From contig CAJWCU010000024.1 in the NCBI GenBank assembly GCA_913030825.1, positions 1 through 47,487 of the forward strand: 47,487 bases of DNA. The letters are read 5' to 3'. The notes beneath the pieces were generated by a model. The model saw nothing but the letters and a program-made list of their open reading frames with translations. It was not told where the DNA came from and did no database searches. Shown here piece after piece: positions 1,383-47,487 of the stretch (position 1 is the first letter of the stretch; every line of letters starts with the position of its first letter). The translations under genes were made by a program, and so were the position numbers. Source of the DNA: an uncultured Rhodospirillaceae bacterium. GTDB taxonomy: Bacteria > Pseudomonadota > Alphaproteobacteria > Rhodospirillales > Casp-alpha2.

Positions 1383-1868
1383 TTGGATTTGGACGTGTCC
1401 ACGTCCGCGCCGGAAGGCGTGGAGCTCCATGAATCTTTGGCGGAGCTATACGACTATTGGAACCGCGCACGGGGGGACCGCTGGGCCCCGGCCTGGTCTG
1501 ATTTCCGGCTGACGGATTTCAGCGACAAATTGATCCCCTTGCTGATCGTCCTGGACGTCAAGCGCGATCCGATGGATTTCGTTTATCGGTTCTGGGGAAC
1601 GGCGAACACGGTCAATCTGGGATACGACTGCACCGGGAAGTCGGTTCACGAAAACGGGTTGTTCGGCGACAAGGTGTTCAATGAATGCCGGCAGGTCGTT
1701 GAAGAGCGCCGGCCGATTATCTTTCATTCCAAGGTCACCCGTGACGACGGCTTATACCGCGAATATTCGCGGATCCGGTTGCCGCTGTCCGATGGCGGGG
1801 ACAAGGTCGCGCACATCATTTCGTCCGTGCATATCACTGTAAACCTGGTCGAAGACTTCGGAGAATAG
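1383..1868 (+). CDS. PAS domain-containing protein
   Basis: 161 aa, essentially one PAS-fold sensor module without an attached kinase, cyclase or HTH output domain. The order YDYWNRARGDRWAP, then a central RFWGT motif, then TGKSVHE and a C-terminal HIISSVHI strand is typical of a short PAS family common in Rhodospirillales. The start is a TTG at 1383 preceded by AAGGA eight bases upstream; a GTG at 1395 is the alternative. It is convergent with a paralogue of the same family at 1925-2419, which suggests local duplication. The ligand and partner are unknown. Confidence 0.8.
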   Translation: MDLDVSTSAPEGVELHESLAELYDYWNRARGDRWAPAWSDFRLTDFSDKLIPLLIVLDVKRDPMDFVYRFWGTANTVNLGYDCTGKSVHENGLFGDKVFNECRQVVEERRPIIFHSKVTRDDGLYREYSRIRLPLSDGGDKVAHIISSVHITVNLVEDFGE

Positions 1869-1924
1869 CCACGCCGAAGACGACCGGGCGCCCTCAATGG
1901 GACGCCGGCCTTCCCAATCCCTGT

Positions 1925-2419
1925 TTAATCGGCGAGACCGTAACGGCTCATGGAAATGATATGGGCGCGCTCGCCCGCGTCGTTTTCCAACGGCAGGTCG
2001 ATCGTTTCGAACGAAACGTAGCTGCGTTCAGGGTAAACGCTTAAACCCGTTCGGCGCACCGGCATGTCGCCGTGCAACGCCAGACGATGAGCCTCCAGAA
2101 TTCGGTCCCGGCCGGCGGCGGGGAAATACTCGCTCAACAACTTTCCCGTGGCGTCGAAGCGCAGCCAGTCCGCCGTGTCCGTTCCCCAGAAACGGACGCG
2201 GAAATCCTCTCCGCCGTTTATGGCGTCCTTCACGACGAGCTTTGGTGCATAGGCATAAACGGAAGGAAGGTCGATATCGCGCCACCGCGGACAGGCCCGA
2301 CCGGCCCGGCGCTGGTCCCAATACGCCAGCATCCAAAGAAGGTCCGGCGCGTGAAAATCCCAGGTCTGTTCGACGTACGGTCCTTCGACCGGCTCCAGTC
2401 CGAAGCGTGGGCTGGCCAT
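1925..2419 (-). CDS. PAS domain-containing protein (paralogue of the preceding gene)
   Basis: 164 aa, the same single-PAS family as 1383-1868: LLWMLAYWDQRRAGRACPRW, a central RVRFWGTDTADWL, TGKLLSEYF and a C-terminal ERAHIISMSRYG. The ATG start is supported by GGGAGGG about seven bases upstream on the minus strand. It converges on its paralogue with only 56 bp between the stops. No output domain is present, so it probably acts as a stand-alone sensory or protein-interaction module. Function unknown. Confidence 0.8.
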   Translation of the reverse strand: MASPRFGLEPVEGPYVEQTWDFHAPDLLWMLAYWDQRRAGRACPRWRDIDLPSVYAYAPKLVVKDAINGGEDFRVRFWGTDTADWLRFDATGKLLSEYFPAAGRDRILEAHRLALHGDMPVRRTGLSVYPERSYVSFETIDLPLENDAGERAHIISMSRYGLAD

Positions 2420-2597
2420 CGCTTTCCCTCCCCGAATCCCCTTGTCGGGATCCTGTGACTTGGAAGCGTAACCTAATGAATGGCACGGGGGCTATGCGAA
2501 CCGCACAAAATACTATGTAAATTTGGTCGCCTTTCCAGACCGGAATACTATATAGAAATCAAAGGGTTCGATGGCCTGGAACGGTCCTGCGGCGGGG

Positions 2598-2606
2598 TGG
2601 TATACT
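2598..2606 (+). promoter_or_regulatory. Candidate extended -10 promoter element of the dioxygenase gene
   Basis: TGGTATACT reads as an extended -10 (TGn followed by TATACT) 29 bases before the ATG at 2635. No convincing -35 is visible, as is often the case with extended -10 promoters. Inference from pattern only. Confidence 0.35.
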
Positions 2607-2634
2607 GTTAAAAACAGACGGAGGCATCCCATCC

Positions 2635-3486
2635 ATGACCATTAAAATCGAACCCTTGGACGCGCCCATGGGGGCGGTCGTTCACGGCCTTGATTCCCGT
2701 AAACCGCTGACGGACGGCGACTTCAAGGCGGTCGAACAGGCGATGCTCGACCATATCGCCATCGTCGTTCCAGAGTTGGAGGAAAACGTCCCGTGGCTGC
2801 GCGATTTCGGCAGCCGCTTCGGTCCTTTGGTGCCGCATATCCTGGACCAGTACCACCATCCGGACGGCTTCGAGGTCTCGATCATCGCCAAGAACATGGA
2901 CAGCCCCGAAAGCCGCAACACGGCCAAGCCGGCGGGCGCTTTCTGGCATTCCGACCTGTCCTACGAGGTCAATCCTTCGGACGCCATTTTCCTTTACGCG
3001 ACGCATCTGCCGTCCAAGGGCGGCGATACGGAGGTCGTCAATATGCGCGCGGCCTATGCCGCCCTGCCGGACGCCACCAAGCGGCGGCTCGAGGGCCTGA
3101 CGGCGATCCATCGTTGGGGTTGGAAGACTTTGGGCGCCACGCCGACCCTGACGCCGGAACAGCAGGCCGCCCACCCGGATGTCATTCATCCCGTCGTGCG
3201 CCCACACCCCAAGACCGACGCGCCGATCCTGTACGTCAGTCCCGGCTACACCATGAAGATCGTGGAATTGGAGCAGGCGGAAAGCGATGACCTGTTGGAG
3301 GAGTTGTTCGAGCACGCGTTGAAACCGGAATTCCGCTACCGCCACAAATGGTCGCTGAATTCCCTGGTTGGGCTCGACAACCGGTCGTCCATGCATTGCG
3401 CGGTCGACGATTACACCGAACCCCGGCGCATGTTGCGGATGATCGTCGGTTGCACCGACGGGCGTCGCGGTAAGGTCGCGGCCTAA
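2635..3486 (+). CDS. TauD/TfdA family Fe(II)/2-oxoglutarate-dependent dioxygenase
   Basis: 283 aa, the usual length for this family of cytoplasmic non-haem iron oxygenases that hydroxylate small organic acids or sulfonates using 2-oxoglutarate and O2. The first two iron ligands are visible as H105-S-D107 in the segment GAFWHSDLSYE. The third His and the 2-oxoglutarate-binding Arg lie in the C-terminal stretch DNRSSMHCAVDDY...RRMLR. GGAGG lies ten bases before the ATG. The neighbours give no pathway context, so the substrate (taurine, 2,4-D-like, alpha-ketoglutarate-coupled sulfonate) cannot be assigned. Confidence 0.88.
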   Translation: MTIKIEPLDAPMGAVVHGLDSRKPLTDGDFKAVEQAMLDHIAIVVPELEENVPWLRDFGSRFGPLVPHILDQYHHPDGFEVSIIAKNMDSPESRNTAKPAGAFWHSDLSYEVNPSDAIFLYATHLPSKGGDTEVVNMRAAYAALPDATKRRLEGLTAIHRWGWKTLGATPTLTPEQQAAHPDVIHPVVRPHPKTDAPILYVSPGYTMKIVELEQAESDDLLEELFEHALKPEFRYRHKWSLNSLVGLDNRSSMHCAVDDYTEPRRMLRMIVGCTDGRRGKVAA

Positions 3487-3617: not shown

Positions 3618-4544
3618 ATGCTGCGCATTCTGCTGTTTCTCGGCACCAACCTGGCGATCGTCGCACTGATCAGTCTGACGTTCCGGCTGCTCGGCCTGGA
3701 AGGATTGCTGCAATCGAACGGCGTCGATTTGAACATCAACGCGCTGATCGTCTATTCGGCGGTGATCGGTTTCGCCGGTGCCCTGATCTCGCTGTTCCTG
3801 TCAAAGACCATGGCCAAGAAGGGCATGGGCGTGAAGATCATCGCCCAGCCCGCCAACCCGACGGAACAATGGATTTTCCAGACTGTCGCGGCACAGGCCA
3901 AGCAGGCGGGCATCGGCATGCCCGAGGTCGGTATTTTCGATCATGCCTCGCCCAATGCCTTCGCCACCGGCTGGAACCGTAACAATGCCCTGGTCGCCGT
4001 CTCGACCGGTCTGCTGACCAACATGGACCGCAAGGAGGTCGAGGCCGTCCTCGGTCACGAGGTCGCCCACGTCGCCAACGGCGACATGGTGACGCTGACC
4101 TTGATCCAAGGGGTCGTGAATACCTTCGTCATCTTCCTGTCGCGGATTGTCGGCCATCTGGTCGACCGCTTGGTGTTTCGGGTCGAACGCGGCCACGGAC
4201 CGGCGTTCTGGATCGTCTCGATGATCGCCGAATTCATCTTCGGCATTGTCGCCATGATGATTGTCATGTGGTTTTCCCGCTGGCGCGAATTCCGCGCCGA
4301 CCGGGGCGGGGCGGAACTGGCCGGCAGGCGCCATATGATCGACGCGCTGAAGGCGTTGAAGGCGGCCCAGGACGCGCCGCCCATGCCGGACGAGATGAAG
4401 GCCTTCGCCATCAGCGCCGGGCGCATGCAGGCGCTGTTCTCCAGCCACCCGCCGCTCGACGCCCGGATCAAGGCGCTGGAGGAAATGGACGCGGGAGGGG
4501 AGGCCAAGCGCGGCCCGCGTGGCGTCTCCCGGCCCTGGCGGTGA
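3618..4544 (+). CDS. htpX: Membrane zinc metalloprotease HtpX
   Basis: 308 aa from the ATG at 3618; the frame extends 57 bases further upstream but without family similarity. HtpX is an inner-membrane M48 peptidase that degrades damaged or misassembled membrane proteins together with FtsH. The N-terminal hydrophobic pair (residues about 1-22 and 38-62) and a third and fourth hydrophobic region around 160-215 fit its topology. The catalytic motif is H147-E148-V-A-H151, and the third zinc ligand lies in the segment REFRADRGGA. Length and motif spacing are normal. It appears monocistronic, converging on the secreted MBL-fold gene. Confidence 0.95.
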   Translation: MLRILLFLGTNLAIVALISLTFRLLGLEGLLQSNGVDLNINALIVYSAVIGFAGALISLFLSKTMAKKGMGVKIIAQPANPTEQWIFQTVAAQAKQAGIGMPEVGIFDHASPNAFATGWNRNNALVAVSTGLLTNMDRKEVEAVLGHEVAHVANGDMVTLTLIQGVVNTFVIFLSRIVGHLVDRLVFRVERGHGPAFWIVSMIAEFIFGIVAMMIVMWFSRWREFRADRGGAELAGRRHMIDALKALKAAQDAPPMPDEMKAFAISAGRMQALFSSHPPLDARIKALEEMDAGGEAKRGPRGVSRPWR

Positions 4545-4636: not shown

Positions 4637-5473
4637 TTACTTTCCGAAGGTCTTCTCGTCGCCCGGCTGCATGACGACGATCTCGGTCGTGTCGCCCATG
4701 CCGCTCAGGTGTGTCTTCAATTGGTCCGGCGTGCCCTTGAGCAGTCCGAAGGTGCCGTAGTGCATCGGCATGACGGTCTTCGGTTTGAGGAACTTGTTGA
4801 CCGCATAGGCCGCGTGGCGCGGGTCCATGGTGAACCAGCCGCCGATGCAGATCAGCGCCAGATCCGGTTTGTAGAGGTCGTGGATCAGTTCCATGTCCTT
4901 GAACACGCCCGTGTCGCCGGAATGGTAGATGGTATAGCCGTCCTCGAGCTTGATGATGTAGCCCGCCGGCTCGCCGCCCGGATAAATGGCCTCGACACCG
5001 TCTTTCTTCGAGACGATCTCGGACGAATGTTCGGCGTGGGTCATGGTGATCGTAATATCCGGGCCCAATGGTGTAATCGGGCCGGACTTGTTGAAGCGGA
5101 TCAGCTGTTCTTTCGGCACCATGCCCAGGATGCGCATGGTATGGCCCATGTCGGCGTTCACGCCGACTTTGGCGCCGGTCATCTTGGCGAGTGCGGCCGT
5201 ATCGCCGATGTGGTCGCCGTGGCCGTGGGTGACCAGGATCAGGTCGACCTTACCCAGCTTGGCCAGGTCTTTGTCGTCGGCCGGCGTCTTCGGATTTTTG
5301 GTGATGAAGGGATCGATCACGATCACCTTCCCGCCCGGTGTCTTGATGCGGAAGGCGGCCTGTCCGTACCACTTCACGTCGGCGGAGGCATGGGCGTCGG
5401 CGGCGGGCGCAGCGGCCCAGGCAAAACCGGCGATCAACGCACCGGCTAGGGTCGTCGTCACGAAACGTTTCAT
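4637..5473 (-). CDS. Secreted metal-dependent hydrolase, metallo-beta-lactamase fold (UlaG/UPF0173-like)
   Basis: 278 aa with an N-terminal signal peptide (basic MKR, hydrophobic core 7-22, AxA-type site near 22-28), so it is probably periplasmic; most relatives are cytoplasmic. The MBL metal motif is H83-G-H85-G-D87-H88, followed by MTHAEHSSE, a HSGDTGVF segment and a final MHYGTF histidine. These are typical of the family that includes L-ascorbate-6-phosphate lactonase UlaG and UPF0173. Substrate unknown. AGGGAGGA lies about nine bases before the ATG, and a strong terminator follows. Confidence 0.88.
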   Translation of the reverse strand: MKRFVTTTLAGALIAGFAWAAAPAADAHASADVKWYGQAAFRIKTPGGKVIVIDPFITKNPKTPADDKDLAKLGKVDLILVTHGHGDHIGDTAALAKMTGAKVGVNADMGHTMRILGMVPKEQLIRFNKSGPITPLGPDITITMTHAEHSSEIVSKKDGVEAIYPGGEPAGYIIKLEDGYTIYHSGDTGVFKDMELIHDLYKPDLALICIGGWFTMDPRHAAYAVNKFLKPKTVMPMHYGTFGLLKGTPDQLKTHLSGMGDTTEIVVMQPGDEKTFGK

Positions 5474-5705
5474 GTTGCGTAGTCCTCCCTAAAGGCAAAG
5501 CCGAAGTCTAACCTGCCTTGCGCCGAACCTGCCACAGAACTCGGGCGATGCAAACTATTTCACAACATCTCCGTCAATTTTTTCACGGCGCGGGTAGATC
5601 GGCGGGTGGTGGCGGCTTTCGGCGGTCGTGCGGGGTGCCGGACAGAGGTCTTGACCGCGGGTGAACAAAATGCGAACAAATTAGCCTGATCATGAGGAGG
5701 TCGCG

Positions 5706-6305
5706 ATGACGGTGACGGGTGCGGACGGACGGGCACGATGTTCCTGGGTCGGCCAGGGAAAGGACTTCTACGAGGCCTATCACGACGTCGAATGGGGTGT
5801 TCCCGTGCACGACGACCGGCAGCATTTCGAGATGCTGAACCTGGAGGGCGCGCAGGCCGGATTGAGCTGGGAAACCATCTTAAAGAAGCGTGATAACTAT
5901 CAGAAATTGTTCCGTGATTTCGATCCGGTGAAATGCGCCAAACTGACCGATCCACAGCTTGAAAAAATCCTCACCAATCCCGGCATCATCCGCAATCGGC
6001 TGAAGGTCTATGGTGTGCGCAAGAACGCCTTGGCCTTCCTCGCGGTGCAGAAGGAGCATGGCTCGTTCGACGCCTACGTCTGGTCTTTCGTCGATGGAAA
6101 ACCCATCGACGGCAAGCGCAAGCAGATGTCCGACGTGCCCGCCAAGACGGCGGCGGCGGAAGCGCTGTCGAAGGATCTGAAGAAACGCGGCTTCACCTTC
6201 GTCGGTCCGACCATCGTTTACGCCTACATGCAGGCGGCGGGCCTGGTGAACGACCACGTGGCCGGGTGCTTCCGATATGCGCCTTGCCGGGCGCTGGGTG
6301 CGTGA
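5706..6305 (+). CDS. tag: DNA-3-methyladenine glycosylase I
   Basis: 199 aa. Removes 3-methyladenine from alkylated DNA as the first step of base-excision repair. The N-terminus RCSWVGQGKDFYEAYHDVEWG and the following LNLEGAQAGLSWETIL are diagnostic. The zinc-snap ligands are C12, H26, H184 and C188, with the same spacing at the C-terminal pair as in the E. coli enzyme. GAGGAGG lies shortly upstream of the ATG. No ada or alkB neighbour is seen, so constitutive expression is likely. Confidence 0.94.
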   Translation: MTVTGADGRARCSWVGQGKDFYEAYHDVEWGVPVHDDRQHFEMLNLEGAQAGLSWETILKKRDNYQKLFRDFDPVKCAKLTDPQLEKILTNPGIIRNRLKVYGVRKNALAFLAVQKEHGSFDAYVWSFVDGKPIDGKRKQMSDVPAKTAAAEALSKDLKKRGFTFVGPTIVYAYMQAAGLVNDHVAGCFRYAPCRALGA

Positions 6306-6458
6306 GGGTGTGGCGGCGGCTTAAGCGATCGCGAACTTGATCACGAAGACGCCCGCCAAGGCCTCCCGGCGCAGGGTCGTTTGCTGCTGGGAAAGTTTGA
6401 AAAGGGAGTCGAGCATGCCTGTCCTCGTTTCGAGGTGCGGTCCCCGGAGCGTCCGGCC

Positions 6459-8744
6459 CTATTTGTCGTCGTCTTTGTCTGTTTCCGGGATTCCGGGTTC
6501 TTCGTCGAAATCCGGACGCTCCCCTTCGGGCGCTTTGACGAGGGTCGCCTTGGGGCGTTTTTCGCCGGCCGTCTTGGGTTCCTGGATCTGTACGTGGGCC
6601 GCCGGCGCGTTGCCCTGGCCGTCGACGCCGAAATAGATCGTCCGGTGGGGGAAGGGGATTTCGATGCCTTCCTCGTCGAACCGGTTCTTGATCAGGCGGT
6701 TGAACGCCCGCTGCAGGCCCAACTGCTTGCCGGGCAGGACTTTCAAACGAGCACGGATGATCACCGCGGAATCGTCGAAGCTCTGCACGCCCATGATCTC
6801 GATGTCCTCCATGATCATGGGTGCGAAGTTCTCGTCCCGGCGCATTTCCTCGCCCACCTCGCGGATGACGTTCATGCAGTGGTCCACGTCTTCGCGGTAG
6901 GCGATCCCGATGTCGAAGAAGGCGAAGGAGAACACCTTGCTGCGGTTTGTGGTCGAGGTGACTTCGCTGAACGGGATCCGGTGCACATCGCCGTGCAGGT
7001 CGCGGAGTTGAATGGACCGAAGGGACATCGATTCAACCTTGCCTCGGTAGCCGCCCAGCACCACCAGGTCCCCGACGGCGACGGAGTCCTCGATCAGAAT
7101 GAACAGGCCGGTGATAACGTCCTTAACGAAGGTCTGGGCACCGAACCCGACCGCCAGGCCGATGATGCCGGCGCCGGCGATCAAGGGGCCGATATCGACG
7201 CCCAATTCCGAAAGCACGGTCAGCGTCACCAGAATGGCCAGCGTGATCAAAACGACGTTTCTGAGCAGCGGCAACAGGGTCAGCGCCCGTTGTGTTCCGG
7301 GCGCATCGGCCTCCGCTTTGGCGTTTTTCACGAGATACCGTTCGATTGCGAAGCTGATCATCTCCCAAATCAGAAGCGCGACGATGACGATCACGGCGAT
7401 GTTGGCGACGCTTTTGGCGATCACTGTGCCGGTCGGGGTGGCGATCCAGCCGACGGCGTCGATGCCCCAGACTTTCAGCACCGCGAGCGTCGCGCCGCCG
7501 TAGATCGCGAACCGGGTGGCGCCGGTGAGAACGGGCAGATAACGGTTGGCCCGCGCCTCGAGACCGGGGAAGCGTTCGTTCTGTTCGTCGCTGATCGAGA
7601 AGAACTCTCGCAGGCCCTTGCGGACCAGCAAGGAGCAGACATAAGCGGCGGCGAAGACGACAAGGCTGACCACCGTGGACCGAAGGACAAAGTCGAAACC
7701 GCCCGGCACCTCGAGCGCCCAAACGCCGAAGATCGCGATGACGTACAGAATGGCGACCAAGTGCCATACGTCCGCGAGGCGCTGGCGAAGCGGGCCCGCC
7801 GTGCGCTCCGCCCCGCCGCGGATCAGGTCGGCGACACCGTAGCGGGTCTGCATGATGAGGATGAACAGCATCGCCGCCGTCAACAGGCCGGCCAGCTTCG
7901 CGGCGATCGCGTGAACCGGCCCCGACACGCCGAGTTCCGGCAGGGCTTCGATCAGGAAATACCCGTAGGCGAGAAAATAAACGAAGCGCCGGATCCACAA
8001 GTTGGCGTAATTCGCGGTTTCGTCCGTCAGCGGCACCAGCCGCATCGCCGATACCCGAGGGGCGAAGCACATTTTGGAAATCGCCAGCGCGATGCGCGCG
8101 AACACGCTTGCGTTGATCACGGCAAGGGCCAGCACGCGCCCGCCATGGGCCGGGGAAACCAGCGTCATTGTCGCATAGGCGCCGGTCAGGAACGCGGTGA
8201 CGGCGATCAGGTCGAGAACGGCGCGGAGAACCGTGAGGAAAATGCGCATCGCCAGGCCGCTTGCCGCCTGTGCTTCAATCGACCGGTGGAAGCGGCCCAA
8301 CAGGTATTTCGCGATGCGTTCCAGGACCACGCCGACAACGACGATGAGGATCAGCTGCCCCGCCAGAAGAAGCCATTGATTGCGGTTTTCAGGCTGCGCC
8401 AGAAAGGCCGCCGCCGAGGACACGAGTTCGGGGAGGTCGGCTAAGTCGTGGGCCACGGTCGCGAGTTGCGCGCCGACGGCATCCATTTTGTCGGCGACGG
8501 TCTGGATCATGATCTGGCCGAGCGATGCGCCGGTTTCGCCGCTGCTTGCCTTTTGAACCGCGATATAGGCTTCCAGCTGGGCGATCAGCGCCGAGCGCTT
8601 GCCGTCGTCCTTCAACGCCTCAAGCAACTGTTGCGCATCGGCGGTGGAGTCAGCTGAGCCCGCGGGCGTGCCCTGGGCAAAACCCGGAGACGCCACGAAC
8701 AGAATGAACAGGGTGCAAAACAGATGGACGAGAAACAGCCTCAT
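6459..8744 (-). CDS. Large MscS-family mechanosensitive ion channel
   Basis: 761 aa from the ATG at 8744; the frame extends 13 codons further upstream, but the chosen start gives a clean signal peptide (MRLFLVHLFCTLFILFVASP...AQG). An N-terminal periplasmic domain (about 25-125) is followed by roughly ten hydrophobic segments. The MscS core comes after these, with a pore-lining helix rich in Gly/Ala near GAGIIGLAVGFGAQTFVKD. The beta domain (SVAVGDLVVLGGYRGKVES) and an alpha/beta C-terminal domain ending in a charged tail complete it. It resembles the YbdG/MscK-like extended channels that protect against hypo-osmotic shock. A long antisense frame exists but is a coding shadow. Confidence 0.9.
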   Translation of the reverse strand: MRLFLVHLFCTLFILFVASPGFAQGTPAGSADSTADAQQLLEALKDDGKRSALIAQLEAYIAVQKASSGETGASLGQIMIQTVADKMDAVGAQLATVAHDLADLPELVSSAAAFLAQPENRNQWLLLAGQLILIVVVGVVLERIAKYLLGRFHRSIEAQAASGLAMRIFLTVLRAVLDLIAVTAFLTGAYATMTLVSPAHGGRVLALAVINASVFARIALAISKMCFAPRVSAMRLVPLTDETANYANLWIRRFVYFLAYGYFLIEALPELGVSGPVHAIAAKLAGLLTAAMLFILIMQTRYGVADLIRGGAERTAGPLRQRLADVWHLVAILYVIAIFGVWALEVPGGFDFVLRSTVVSLVVFAAAYVCSLLVRKGLREFFSISDEQNERFPGLEARANRYLPVLTGATRFAIYGGATLAVLKVWGIDAVGWIATPTGTVIAKSVANIAVIVIVALLIWEMISFAIERYLVKNAKAEADAPGTQRALTLLPLLRNVVLITLAILVTLTVLSELGVDIGPLIAGAGIIGLAVGFGAQTFVKDVITGLFILIEDSVAVGDLVVLGGYRGKVESMSLRSIQLRDLHGDVHRIPFSEVTSTTNRSKVFSFAFFDIGIAYREDVDHCMNVIREVGEEMRRDENFAPMIMEDIEIMGVQSFDDSAVIIRARLKVLPGKQLGLQRAFNRLIKNRFDEEGIEIPFPHRTIYFGVDGQGNAPAAHVQIQEPKTAGEKRPKATLVKAPEGERPDFDEEPGIPETDKDDDK

Positions 8745-44983: not shown

Positions 44984-45393
44984 CCAAGGAATTGAAATGC
45001 CACAAGGGCATCGGCGAAAAAGTGCAGGGCATCGCCCTGGTGGCCGACGACAACTTCTCGGCCCGCTACGACCTGGACCGCAAGAAGGGTGTGTTCTCCC
45101 GCCCGGCCCATAAGCTTTGCGGGCAGTCCTATCACGACAAGATCCTGGTTCTGAACACGTCGAAGGGCGGGGTCGCTTCGGCCTGGATGCTGCACGAGAT
45201 GAAGTCGCGCAACATCTGCCCCAAGGCGATCCTGTTCAACACGGCGAACACGATCCTGGCCCAGGGCGCGGCCCTGGCCAACCTGACCATGTGCGACCGC
45301 TTCGAAGACGGTGACGTGACGCAATTGATCCAGACCGGCGATGAGGTGATCGTCGATCCGGAACAGGGTTTGGTGACGGTGGTGAACGGCTAA
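44980..45393 (+). CDS. Aconitase X swivel (small) subunit
   Basis: 137 aa, DUF126 swivel domain that closes over the catalytic subunit. FSARYDLDRKKGVFSRPAHKLCGQS and LNTSKGGVASAWMLHEMK are diagnostic. Translation is coupled to the large subunit by an ATGA overlap. Confidence 0.92.
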   Translation: MTKELKCHKGIGEKVQGIALVADDNFSARYDLDRKKGVFSRPAHKLCGQSYHDKILVLNTSKGGVASAWMLHEMKSRNICPKAILFNTANTILAQGAALANLTMCDRFEDGDVTQLIQTGDEVIVDPEQGLVTVVNG

Positions 45394-45424
45394 GCAGCGC
45401 CGCCGGCGTCTTCGCGGGTCTGTC

Positions 45425-45449
45425 GGCATCCGCCCCAACGGGCGGTGCC
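45425..45449 (+). other. Long hairpin after the aconitase X operon
   Basis: GGCA(T)CCGCCC and GGGCGGTGCC form a ten-pair stem with one bulge and a CAAC loop, 32 bases after the operon stop. No T-run follows. It may end the operon and marks the last GC-rich chromosomal segment before the RT cassette. Confidence 0.5.
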
Positions 45450-45474
45450 GGTCAGGCCAATATATGTGCATTTA

Positions 45475-45506
45475 TTTGGATTCTACCGCATAAATCTGGT
45501 ATGAAT
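45475..45506 (+). promoter_or_regulatory. Candidate promoter of the reverse-transcriptase cassette
   Basis: TTGGAT (45476-45481), an 18-base spacer and an extended -10 TGGTATGAAT (TATGAA at 45500-45505). Transcription would start near 45512, at the first of several leader hairpins. Confidence 0.5.
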
Positions 45507-45573
45507 GCAGAATCACACCTCTTGGTGTCTCTCTAAGCTCTGGAAGCTTGAGATCGTTCGCTTCAAGGTGTCG

Positions 45574-45684
45574 TCGGTTGCGGGAATGTCCCGTTCACAT
45601 CGGACGACGTGCAGCAAGTGGAACGCCGACTGTGCCGAGCCGACCGTTGGGAGAAATCCCGGCGGGATCGTTTCGGCGGCAAGC
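45574..45684 (+). repeat. 111-bp direct repeat, copy A
   Basis: Identical base for base to 45943-46053. It starts TCGGTTGCGG and ends CGGCGGCAAGC. The start-to-start distance is 369 bp and the spacer between copies is 258 bp. Both copies read GCGNVPFTSDDVQQVERR in the same open frame. Confidence 0.97.
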
Positions 45685-45752
45685 GGGTTTCCGGCGGTGC
45701 TACCAAGAATGCGAAGAGGCCTCTGGAACCCATCTACACTACGGAGGCTACT

Positions 45753-46079
45753 ATGCGATTTACAGGCGAAGCCCGGGCGTGGGTTGGCAGGAGAGGAGCG
45801 TCGAGGTGGCGCGTCGGGCGTTATGTTATGGCGTCTGCAGCCCTGTTCATGATATGTTCTGCGGGGCTATGTGGTTTCGGGTTTGATGTTCGAGCTTCGC
45901 TCAGCGTAGAATCCGAATATTCAGTCGGTCCAACCGCTGAGTTCGGTTGCGGGAATGTCCCGTTCACATCGGACGACGTGCAGCAAGTGGAACGCCGACT
46001 GTGCCGAGCCGACCGTTGGGAGAAATCCCGGCGGGATCGTTTCGGCGGCAAGCAACCCGATTTCAGTGTGGGTTCCTAG
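45753..46079 (+). CDS. Small putative secreted or membrane protein encoded across repeat B
   Basis: 108 aa from an ATG with GGAGG about five bases upstream. The N-terminus is Arg-rich (RAWVGRRGASRWRVGR), followed by a hydrophobic signal-like or transmembrane stretch (YVMASAALFMICSAGLCGFGF). The C-terminal 45 residues are mostly repeat B and end in tandem TAG TAG. The frame is open upstream back to 45552, through repeat A. Family not recognised. It may be a real accessory gene, or only the chromosomal part of a longer frame made when the RT copies the region. Confidence 0.45.
   Translation: MRFTGEARAWVGRRGASRWRVGRYVMASAALFMICSAGLCGFGFDVRASLSVESEYSVGPTAEFGCGNVPFTSDDVQQVERRLCRADRWEKSRRDRFGGKQPDFSVGS
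45943..46053 (+). repeat. 111-bp direct repeat, copy B
   Basis: Identical to copy A and placed 48 bases before the RT start codon. Flanking bases differ at once on both sides (T before TCGG here versus G in copy A; AACCC after here versus GGGTT after A), so the repeat ends are sharp. Confidence 0.97.
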
Positions 46080-46100
46080 TAGTGGCGCTGAGAAGAGGGA

Positions 46101-47321
46101 ATGCAACAACACCGCCGCCCTTTAAATATCTTCTCCCATAGCAATCTTGAGATTGCTTGGCAGGACGTTTCAAAAGGGAAGCGTATGTCGCGCTCGTTTG
46201 GTGTTGATGGCCAAACGATTGAAAGTTTTGCGAGCCACAAAGATCAAAACCTCCGAGACATTCGTTCGCGAGTGTTAGCTGGGACTTACAAGTTCTCGCT
46301 GCTCAACGCTCGACCAATCCCAAAGCCCGGTTCGACGAAACCTCGAATAATATCAGTGCCTACTGTGGAGGATCGAATTGTGCAGAGGTGCATTCTCAAT
46401 TTTCTTTTGAAGGGAGATCGCTTGAAGGTATTGAACCCAATTAGTCATGGGTTCAATAGAGGTGTGGGCCGAGGGGTGCCTTCAGCGGTTAGGGAAGCAA
46501 AAAAATATAGAAAGACCGGGCTGTGGGTACTGAAAACAGATATTTCTTCTTTTTTTGATAAAATAAATAGAGATTTATTGTTTCAAGAAATTGATAAAAA
46601 GCTCAATAAGACATCAATTTTTAGTTTACTCAAATCAGCGCTCGATTCTGAAATAAATACCGAAGACCCTGAAATACAGGATATTGTCTACCAGAATGGG
46701 ATTGTCGTTGGCGAAGGCATTCGCCAGGGGATGCCCTTGTCTCCTTTGATATCTAATTTTGTTTTAAGGAGATTTGATGCGGCTGCGCAAAAGCGAAGTC
46801 TGAAAATAGTGCGGTACGCTGATGACCTTATCTTATTTTGTAAGGATGAGCCGGCCTGCAAGGACGCGTATCTTTTCGTTGAGGCAGAACTGCGAAAAAT
46901 TCGGCTTGGCGTGCCTGAACTCAGTGTAAGCGGGAAGAGCGTAATAAAATCACCGGAAGAGAGCGTGGAATTTTTAGGTTTCGAACTTTGCGGCAAGAAA
47001 GATCGTTACGCTGTCCGAATTCCAAAGGAAGCTTATGAGACCTTAAGCGACAGACTTAGTGTGTATGGGACATTTCAAACTGCATTTGAGAAGAAGAGAA
47101 CACTTTCTCGAGTCACCCAGACGATTGAGAACATCGTGGTTGGATATGAGCGGAGCTATGACGTTGCCGACTCGAGCAACCATGCTGAGTTTAAAAATTA
47201 CGCCCGTTCAAAAAAGAAGGCGACCGTGAACAGTCTGCTGAAGTCAATGTTCGGTGCCGAGGTAATAAATAGATTAAGCGCCGAACACCGAGAATTTTTA
47301 GGTTTCAGCTCTGATCAATAG
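46101..47321 (+). CDS. Standalone RNA-directed DNA polymerase (reverse transcriptase) of unassigned group
   Basis: 406 aa. In order: an RT0-like block (16-45, AWQDVSKGKRMSRSFGVDGQ), IPKPGSTKPRIISVPTVEDR (73-92), SHGFNRGVG (115-123), motif A with D147 (KTDISSFFDKI), RQGMPLSPLISN (208-219), the catalytic YADD at 239-242, and VEFLGF (289-294). The C-terminal 100 residues form a basic helical thumb-like region, with no HNH endonuclease or maturase zinc motif. QGxxxSP rules against DGR RTs; NAxxH and VTG retron motifs are missing. Codon use is strikingly AT-rich compared with all neighbours, so it was probably acquired by transfer. AAGAGG lies just upstream of the ATG; an in-frame ATG at 46185 with AAGGGA is a weaker alternative. 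Confidence 0.92.
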   Translation: MQQHRRPLNIFSHSNLEIAWQDVSKGKRMSRSFGVDGQTIESFASHKDQNLRDIRSRVLAGTYKFSLLNARPIPKPGSTKPRIISVPTVEDRIVQRCILNFLLKGDRLKVLNPISHGFNRGVGRGVPSAVREAKKYRKTGLWVLKTDISSFFDKINRDLLFQEIDKKLNKTSIFSLLKSALDSEINTEDPEIQDIVYQNGIVVGEGIRQGMPLSPLISNFVLRRFDAAAQKRSLKIVRYADDLILFCKDEPACKDAYLFVEAELRKIRLGVPELSVSGKSVIKSPEESVEFLGFELCGKKDRYAVRIPKEAYETLSDRLSVYGTFQTAFEKKRTLSRVTQTIENIVVGYERSYDVADSSNHAEFKNYARSKKKATVNSLLKSMFGAEVINRLSAEHREFLGFSSDQ

Positions 47322-47324
47322 GCG

Positions 47325-47487
47325 TCAGGCCCGCTTCTTTTCCGGCTTCCGGTCCAGATAGGGGGCGAGGTACTCGCCCGTATAGCTGCCCTTGGTCGCG
47401 GCGACGTCTTCGGGCGTGCCCTGGGCGACCAACTTGCCGCCCTTGGTGCCGCCTTCGGGTCCCAGGTCGATCACCCAGTCGGCCGTC
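47325..47487 (-). CDS. uvrA: Excinuclease ABC subunit UvrA, C-terminal end (truncated by window)
   Basis: Only the last 53 codons are inside the window. The translation [20 protein letters not shown] followed by [22 protein letters not shown] is the highly conserved UvrA C-terminus of the nucleotide-excision repair damage sensor, ending in a Lys/Arg-rich tail. Its stop is three bases from the RT stop on the other strand. Confidence 0.95.

Follow-up and report, generated by a model that had tools for sequence, protein, structure and literature searches.

Near the end of a 47,487-nucleotide (nt) stretch of DNA from an uncultured Rhodospirillaceae bacterium (contig CAJWCU010000024.1, analyzed in full and referred to here as the window), a gene for a reverse transcriptase (RT) is preceded by two copies of a long direct repeat. 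The copies, R1 (45574 to 45684) and R2 (45943 to 46053), are 111 nt each and 100% identical, exactly as an earlier note on this DNA had claimed, and their starts lie 369 nt apart. Between them is a 258-nt segment, B (45685 to 45942), which together with R2 makes up a unit of 369 nt, or 123 codons (45685 to 46053). Contrary to the same note, the leader is not purely noncoding: a small open reading frame (ORF) of 108 amino acids (aa; 45753 to 46079) begins in B at an ATG preceded by a GGAGG motif resembling a ribosome-binding site (RBS; 45743 to 45747), encodes one hydrophobic, transmembrane-like segment (45825 to 45881; mean Kyte-Doolittle value of 1.85 over 19 residues), continues through R2, which codes for its C-terminal part, and stops 8 codons past it. 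No match to this ORF was found in PADLOC, Pfam, NCBIfam, or PHROGs. The RT (406 aa; 46101 to 47321) contains QGMPLSP and RYADD motifs and matches RVT_1 (E value of 8e-28), and no maturase or endonuclease domain was found in it. All these features are on the plus strand. The description of the cassette as AT-rich applies to the RT gene (44% GC) and not to the leader (45459 to 46100; 56%), compared with 63% for the window.

The only strict promoter-like match in positions 45380 to 46120, a sigma-70-like TTGATG-18-TAGAAT (45883 to 45912, plus strand; 0.4 matches expected from shuffled sequences), lies between the two copies, 3' of the ATG and 5' of R2, and not at 45512. The window R folds only a little better than its shuffles (z of -1.26). 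The corresponding z was negative in 10/10 loci (-0.63 to -4.54; 3 of the stretches folded were offset by 1 to 30 bases), which would be expected of an R that doubles as an RNA signal.

A frame and spacing rule shared by related loci

Relatives of the RT were sought in 150 and 317 related genomes, 385 genomes of the class, 398 of the phylum, GTDB contigs, plasmids, and viral contigs, yielding 18 distinct loci after near-copies L025, L029, L042, and L045 were merged with L023, L022, L041, and L043, respectively. An R1-R2 pair lies upstream of the RT in 13 of the 18 and is missing from 4; the last, L088, runs off its contig, with only 300 nt upstream of the RT. In line with the earlier proposal of a single retroelement, the RT and the duplication in front of it make up a conserved unit in most, not all, of the loci. 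None of the outcomes that would have refuted the note was encountered, except for the absence of the pair in 4 of the 18. The lengths of the R core and the spacings (in nt) are 111 and 369 in the window, 105 and 384 in L002, 119 and 375 in L023, 107 and 366 in L026, 63 and 303 in L027, 97 to 103 and 339 in L028, 110 and 375 in L031, 126 and 399 in L041, 123 and 378 in L043, 129 and 387 in L044, 145 and 453 in L087, 150 and 381 in L089, and 142 and 452 in L090. Within a locus, the cores are 94 to 100% identical, with longer alignments dropping to 87% in L031. The R sequences of different loci are not clearly alike, close relatives excepted (L087 and L090 share R); this is true even of L043 and L044, which are 67% identical over the aligning half of the query. 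Because 12 further loci have such a pair in the corresponding position, built from different repeat sequences, both chance and an assembly artifact are unlikely origins of the repeat.

The spacing between R1 and R2 is divisible by 3 in each of the first 10 loci (chance, 1.7e-5) and in 12/13 overall (chance, about 1.7e-5). When the unit is joined into a circle, the sense frame of the small ORF runs around it without a stop codon in the window, and one sense frame is likewise open in the first 10/10 loci and in 12/13 in all. Conversely, the antisense strand has no open frame in the 9 loci tested first or in L044 and L087, and has two in the GC-rich L089. Shuffled sequences keep the sense frame open with a probability of 0 to 0.12 per locus among the first ten; the value for L087 is 0.001, which is strong support, and that for L089 is 0.47. 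Since the genomic small ORF accounts for part of the open frame, a conservative test took that ORF as given and was limited to the remainder, namely, R1 in the small-ORF frame and an open stretch from R1 to the ATG; it gave 8e-10 for 10 loci, treated as independent though not fully so and with the ATG chosen in that frame, and about 6e-8 without L044 and L002. The hypothesis was fixed on three loci (the window, L002, and L023), and 9 of the 10 pair-bearing loci fetched afterwards (L026, L027, L028, L031, L041, L043, L044, L087, L089, and L090) fit it (chance on spacing alone, about 4e-4). The sole exception is L090, where the spacing is 452, the frame is lost, and the RT is broken. From the sequence, the B+R unit joined at R, as a circle or a concatemer, would form an endless ORF.

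Two further properties accompany the frame. A small ORF with an RBS-like motif is present in the first 10/10 loci (the ATG being chosen in frame), and 8/10 units reach a Kyte-Doolittle value of 1.6. Upstream of R1, the stretch that follows the last in-frame stop is devoid of start codons in 6/10 loci, among them the window, which speaks against a plain long ORF.

A proposed hidden gene assembled by template switching

We lean toward a reading in which R1 and R2 are terminal repeats for template switching, with concatemeric cDNA assembling a hidden gene in a manner resembling DRT2, one of the defense-associated RTs (DRTs). In DRT2, the concatenated adjacent template is reported to form one stop-free frame with a unit length divisible by 3, an RBS, and a start codon, and the linear genome conceals the gene (PMC11100668). 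Here, the cassette RNA would carry terminal direct repeats in the order R1-B-R2. The RT would copy this RNA toward R1, and the cDNA end complementary to R1 would re-anneal on R2, in an A-B-A' arrangement with an A of about 110 nt; continued copying would string B+R units together into a concatemer or give a circle with one R, the sequence being compatible with either. In the genome, the frame is interrupted, having no start upstream of R1 and a stop 8 codons past R2; in the joined product, the ATG in B, the hydrophobic segment, R, and the next B would follow one another in a single frame without stops. The promoter-like site in B, which follows the ATG in the genome, would precede it in the concatemer. 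The predicted product is a chain of repeating 123-residue units, each containing a membrane-like segment; by analogy with Neo of DRT2, it probably acts as an inducible membrane effector in phage defense. The identical terminal repeats, the open frame from R into B, and the unit-length rule are most simply accounted for by an RT-made R1-R2 join that is then translated, and the repeat is better explained by terminal redundancy for template switching than by a duplicated noncoding RNA (ncRNA). The earlier interpretation of the cassette as a functional retroelement or defense unit is therefore partly supported, its defense component by analogy.

Several observations weigh against this reading. Four loci (L022, L024, L030, and L040) have no R pair upstream of the RT, L030 retaining, as judged by eye, only an R2-like stretch. 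With an A of 110 nt, the homology greatly exceeds the 4 nt of DRT10. A second RT clade (below) has the R layout in L003, L061, and L081 without an endless frame, which leaves room for a more general role of R. At the level of single loci, L087 has no clear RBS and ATG, L089 lends weak support because it is GC-rich, and L044, whose RT coding sequence is distributed over two frames, still has the open frame of the unit. L043 and L044 share nucleotide-level conservation in the segment upstream of the ATG, with no excess of third-position changes there, leaving protein-level selection on this segment unsupported. Finally, the best promoter-like site lies between the ATG and R2 in 8/10 loci (chance, 0.04), and in most units many shuffles give equally good scores.

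If hidden-gene assembly is correct, building genes by reverse transcription would be a recurrent solution and not peculiar to DRT2, bacterial RTs would gain a retrovirus-like use of terminal repeats, and the frame-and-spacing rule would offer a way to find further genes that are invisible to ORF finders. The layout was not found described in the open-access literature searched. The view that a long exact repeat is foreign to the known groups agrees with the available parts of the DRT2 and DRT10 accounts, which do not mention one (PMC11100668, PMC12632851).

Alternative explanations for the repeats

An unlikely alternative is retrohoming of the kind seen in diversity-generating retroelements (DGRs), only without mutagenesis: R1 would be the template and R2 the target at the 3' end of the small ORF, with the RT keeping R2 equal to R1 or swapping versions in. 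The arrangement does resemble a DGR, with one copy upstream, adjoining the RT, and the other forming the 3' part of a coding gene. R evolves fast between loci, yet its two copies at any one locus change together; the second RT clade shares this layout without the frame rule; and the same repeat scan detects DGR-like template and variable repeats at three loci (L006, L009, and L020). However, the differences between R1 and R2 lack adenine bias: 15 were counted over 12 loci (10 of the window clade plus L003 and L081, with L061, L087, L089, and L090 outside the count), at which the R1 base is T in 6, G in 5, A in 3, and C in 1. In the DGR-like controls, nearly all differences are at adenines of a single copy (20/20 in L006 and 8/9 in L020; the ungapped count of L009 was unusable as a control). 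This comparison rests on the relatives because R1 and R2 of the window differ nowhere, and it gives no sign of DGR adenine mutagenesis. Furthermore, the IGxxxSQ motif of DGR RTs is absent from the window RT, which has QGMPLSP in its place, DGR-like RTs form a separate clade, and retrohoming leaves unexplained both the spacing in multiples of 3 and the open frame before the ATG.

Quite unlikely, too, is a mobile retroelement that replicates via its terminal repeats, with the small membrane protein as an accessory without a defense role. The whole 1.86-kb cassette (leader, R1, B, R2, and RT; 45459 to 47323, plus strand) is bracketed by an 8-bp duplication, GTCAGGCC (45451 to 45458 and 47324 to 47331), present as a single copy in the nearest relative, L091, and both flanks align adjacent to each other, without the cassette, in five same-genus genomes (L091 and L093 to L096; in L091, the right flank aligns over 36 nt only). 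The comparison comprised 8 genomes, including the window's own; for L097, only the left flank gave an alignment, and another genome had no match. The cassette is thus an insertion with an 8-bp flanking duplication at an otherwise conserved site, in agreement with the conserved setting described earlier, between genes that we take to encode the aconitase-X small subunit and UvrA, and from its sequence it appears to be small and mobile. The stop codon of the RT is 2 nt from the cassette end, and the distribution is rare and patchy, as a mobile retroelement would have it. Against this explanation, no integrase, endonuclease, or intron RNA was found in the cassette, R lies away from the element ends, the cassette is present once in its genome, and the open frame is not predicted. 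Mobility can, however, be compatible with template switching and a hidden gene. By eye, the GTCAGGCC site is in or beside a terminator-like hairpin.

Very unlikely is an ordinary gene for a small, toxin-like membrane protein next to an RT, with R1 an upstream copy that has a regulatory role or is the target of an antisense RNA and whose identity to R2 is maintained by recombination, for although the RBS-like motif of the small ORF and the membrane partners noted for several DRT systems in the available part of PMC12632851 fit it, the frame and spacing rule (8e-10) and an R1 that is in coding sense and frame, yet start-less upstream in 6/10 loci, do not.

The RT belongs to none of the classes tested

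The RTs of the window kind form a clade of 15 rows with full support (100) in the SH-like approximate likelihood-ratio test (SH-aLRT), apart from group II, DGR-like, UG17, UG4, Drt9, and Drt3a RTs. The tree, built by a quick method, comprised 48 rows after removal of 6 near-duplicates, with no retron, Drt2, or G2L4 row and with long branches for UG4 and Drt3a; it holds 15/18 loci, and L044, L088, and L090 were assigned by search matches only. Profile scores agree with the tree. UG17 is the top-scoring named UG profile (152 bits), whereas the true UG17 RTs of L049 and L011 score 460 and 439, and UG17 and the window RT fall into separate clades (SH-aLRT of 100 and 99). The score against NCBIfam Drt2 is 50.4 bits (cutoff, 390; PADLOC Drt2, E value of 6.9e-14 and 49.7 bits), against retron St85 of NCBIfam 80.5 bits (cutoff, 235), and against the group II profile TIGR04416 181 bits (cutoff, 300), compared with 317 to 434 for 7 group II controls. 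UG6 is not among the best 25 of the 87 PADLOC families matched. No GIIM domain was detected in the three clade members scanned, and the Rfam search returned neither intron RNA nor retron RNA, an msr-msd fold having been sought in that search alone. An AlphaFold model of the RT (pLDDT of 88, pTM of 0.82, from 8 sequences) is closest among solved structures to the group II intron RT GsI-IIC, including its template-switching complex, and to G2L4 (6ar1_A, TM score of 0.72; 9d4s_B, 0.74), followed by DGR, DRT9, and DRT2. Membership in DRT2, UG17/DRT10, UG4, Drt9, Drt3a, DGR, and group II was rejected on scores and clades. By sequence, then, the window RT lies within no class tested.

Comparison with known systems

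The similarity to DRT2 resides in the putative template when concatenated, with its stop-free frame, unit length divisible by 3, RBS-like motif, and start codon. The differences are several: the RT is no Drt2 (50 bits against a cutoff of 390); the unit is 303 to 453 nt, three times larger than the 120 nt of DRT2; the repeats are 63 to 150 nt, in place of ACA motifs; the open frame is in the sense of the RT, a possible further difference, as the neo mRNA is opposite to its ncRNA; and most units here encode a hydrophobic segment. With DRT10/UG17, the cassette shares the order R1-B-R2, which would correspond to A-B-A' on a putative template, and UG17 is the nearest named UG profile. However, in DRT10, the realignment involves a 9-nt repeat with an A of 4 nt in Eco3 (PMC12632851), as opposed to an A of 111 nt here, and no SLATT partner is present, the small ORF being without a match in the four databases searched.

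Group II introns and G2L4 supply the nearest structures, but the cassette lacks an above-cutoff TIGR04416 match, GIIM, and intron RNA. With retroviruses and long-terminal-repeat (LTR) elements, the cassette would share a terminally redundant RNA, and one RT of the second clade is fused to RNase H, whereas no gag, integrase, or LTR structure was seen here.

A second RT clade with the same layout

Among 53 other RT loci scanned as controls, several of which had little sequence upstream, 8 had an upstream repeat of at least 50 nt: the three DGR-like loci named above, L005, L066, and L035 (diverged), and L003 and L061. The last two belong with L081, from a Pseudomonas island, and L068, whose contig ends near the RT, to a second clade (SH-aLRT of 100), which groups with the window clade with a support of 59 only. 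In L003, L061, and L081, the R copies are 127 to 132 nt and 98 to 100% identical, with spacings of 369, about 382 (owing to an indel), and 376, respectively. The small ORF of this clade begins with MQKRA, and R2 is its C-terminal part. Another locus of this kind, L086, has no repeat within the 2.9 kb fetched.

It is conceivable, though we hold it only tentatively, that RT-built hidden genes were invented more than once. Both clades, which lie outside the named groups tested, would encode a gene in permuted order, enclosed by the terminal repeats, and reunite its two parts through template switching; the first would produce an endless membrane polymer, and the second, which includes an RT-RNase H fusion, a complete gene of about 114 to 121 codons per unit, in which R is followed by 46 to 57 codons up to just before the next start. 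The case for a permuted gene in the second clade is weak because the scores of the B5' peptides are not frame-specific and the open runs of matching length have shuffle P values of 0.12 to 0.24 each. Homology of the B5' peptides was rejected, with R-frame scores of 26, 23, and 26 being no better than those of other frames (up to 43).

The L061 RT (1405 to 3105, G496) carries the RNase H at its C terminus, in a locus with 127-nt direct repeats, a combination that is unusual in bacteria; it also has a weak maturase-domain match (27.8 bits; cutoff, 23). In L081, an annotated 64-aa hypothetical protein (3741 to 3935) is the second-clade small ORF, and a recombinase and a TIR-domain gene follow it (5414 to 7190), which suggests a defense island. 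A search for L081 in phages and E. coli found nothing.

Distribution and further observations

The RT of the window kind is rare and patchy, occurring in 3/317 genomes of the order and 3/385 of the class (E value of 1e-30, the window's own genome included). Viral scans queried with the RTs of the window, A1, L061, and L081 found nothing; 19 phage records have remote RT matches (25 to 30% identity), and L098 to L100 are weak viral matches. The 88 plasmid records matched are mainly group II-like matches in Sinorhizobium, 29% identical. Further near-copies are present in NC_021976, NZ_CP029006, and CP119240.

On plasmid and viral contigs, the RT frames of L044 (3440 to 4673), L045, and L090 are split or broken; in L044 and L045, the R pair is nonetheless present and its spacing is still divisible by 3. 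L029, a GTDB contig with Marinimicrobia in its title, appears to carry the RT locus of the alphaproteobacterial L022 and is possibly a mislabeled or contaminated metagenome-assembled genome. Upstream of a Drt9 RT in L015 is a 43-nt direct repeat, 95% identical, with a spacing of 103. Finally, in L040, from an Acetobacter plasmid, TGTCC is repeated ∼63 times without error (7014 to 7329) inside an annotated coding sequence adjoining the clade RT, a possible phase-variable repeat.
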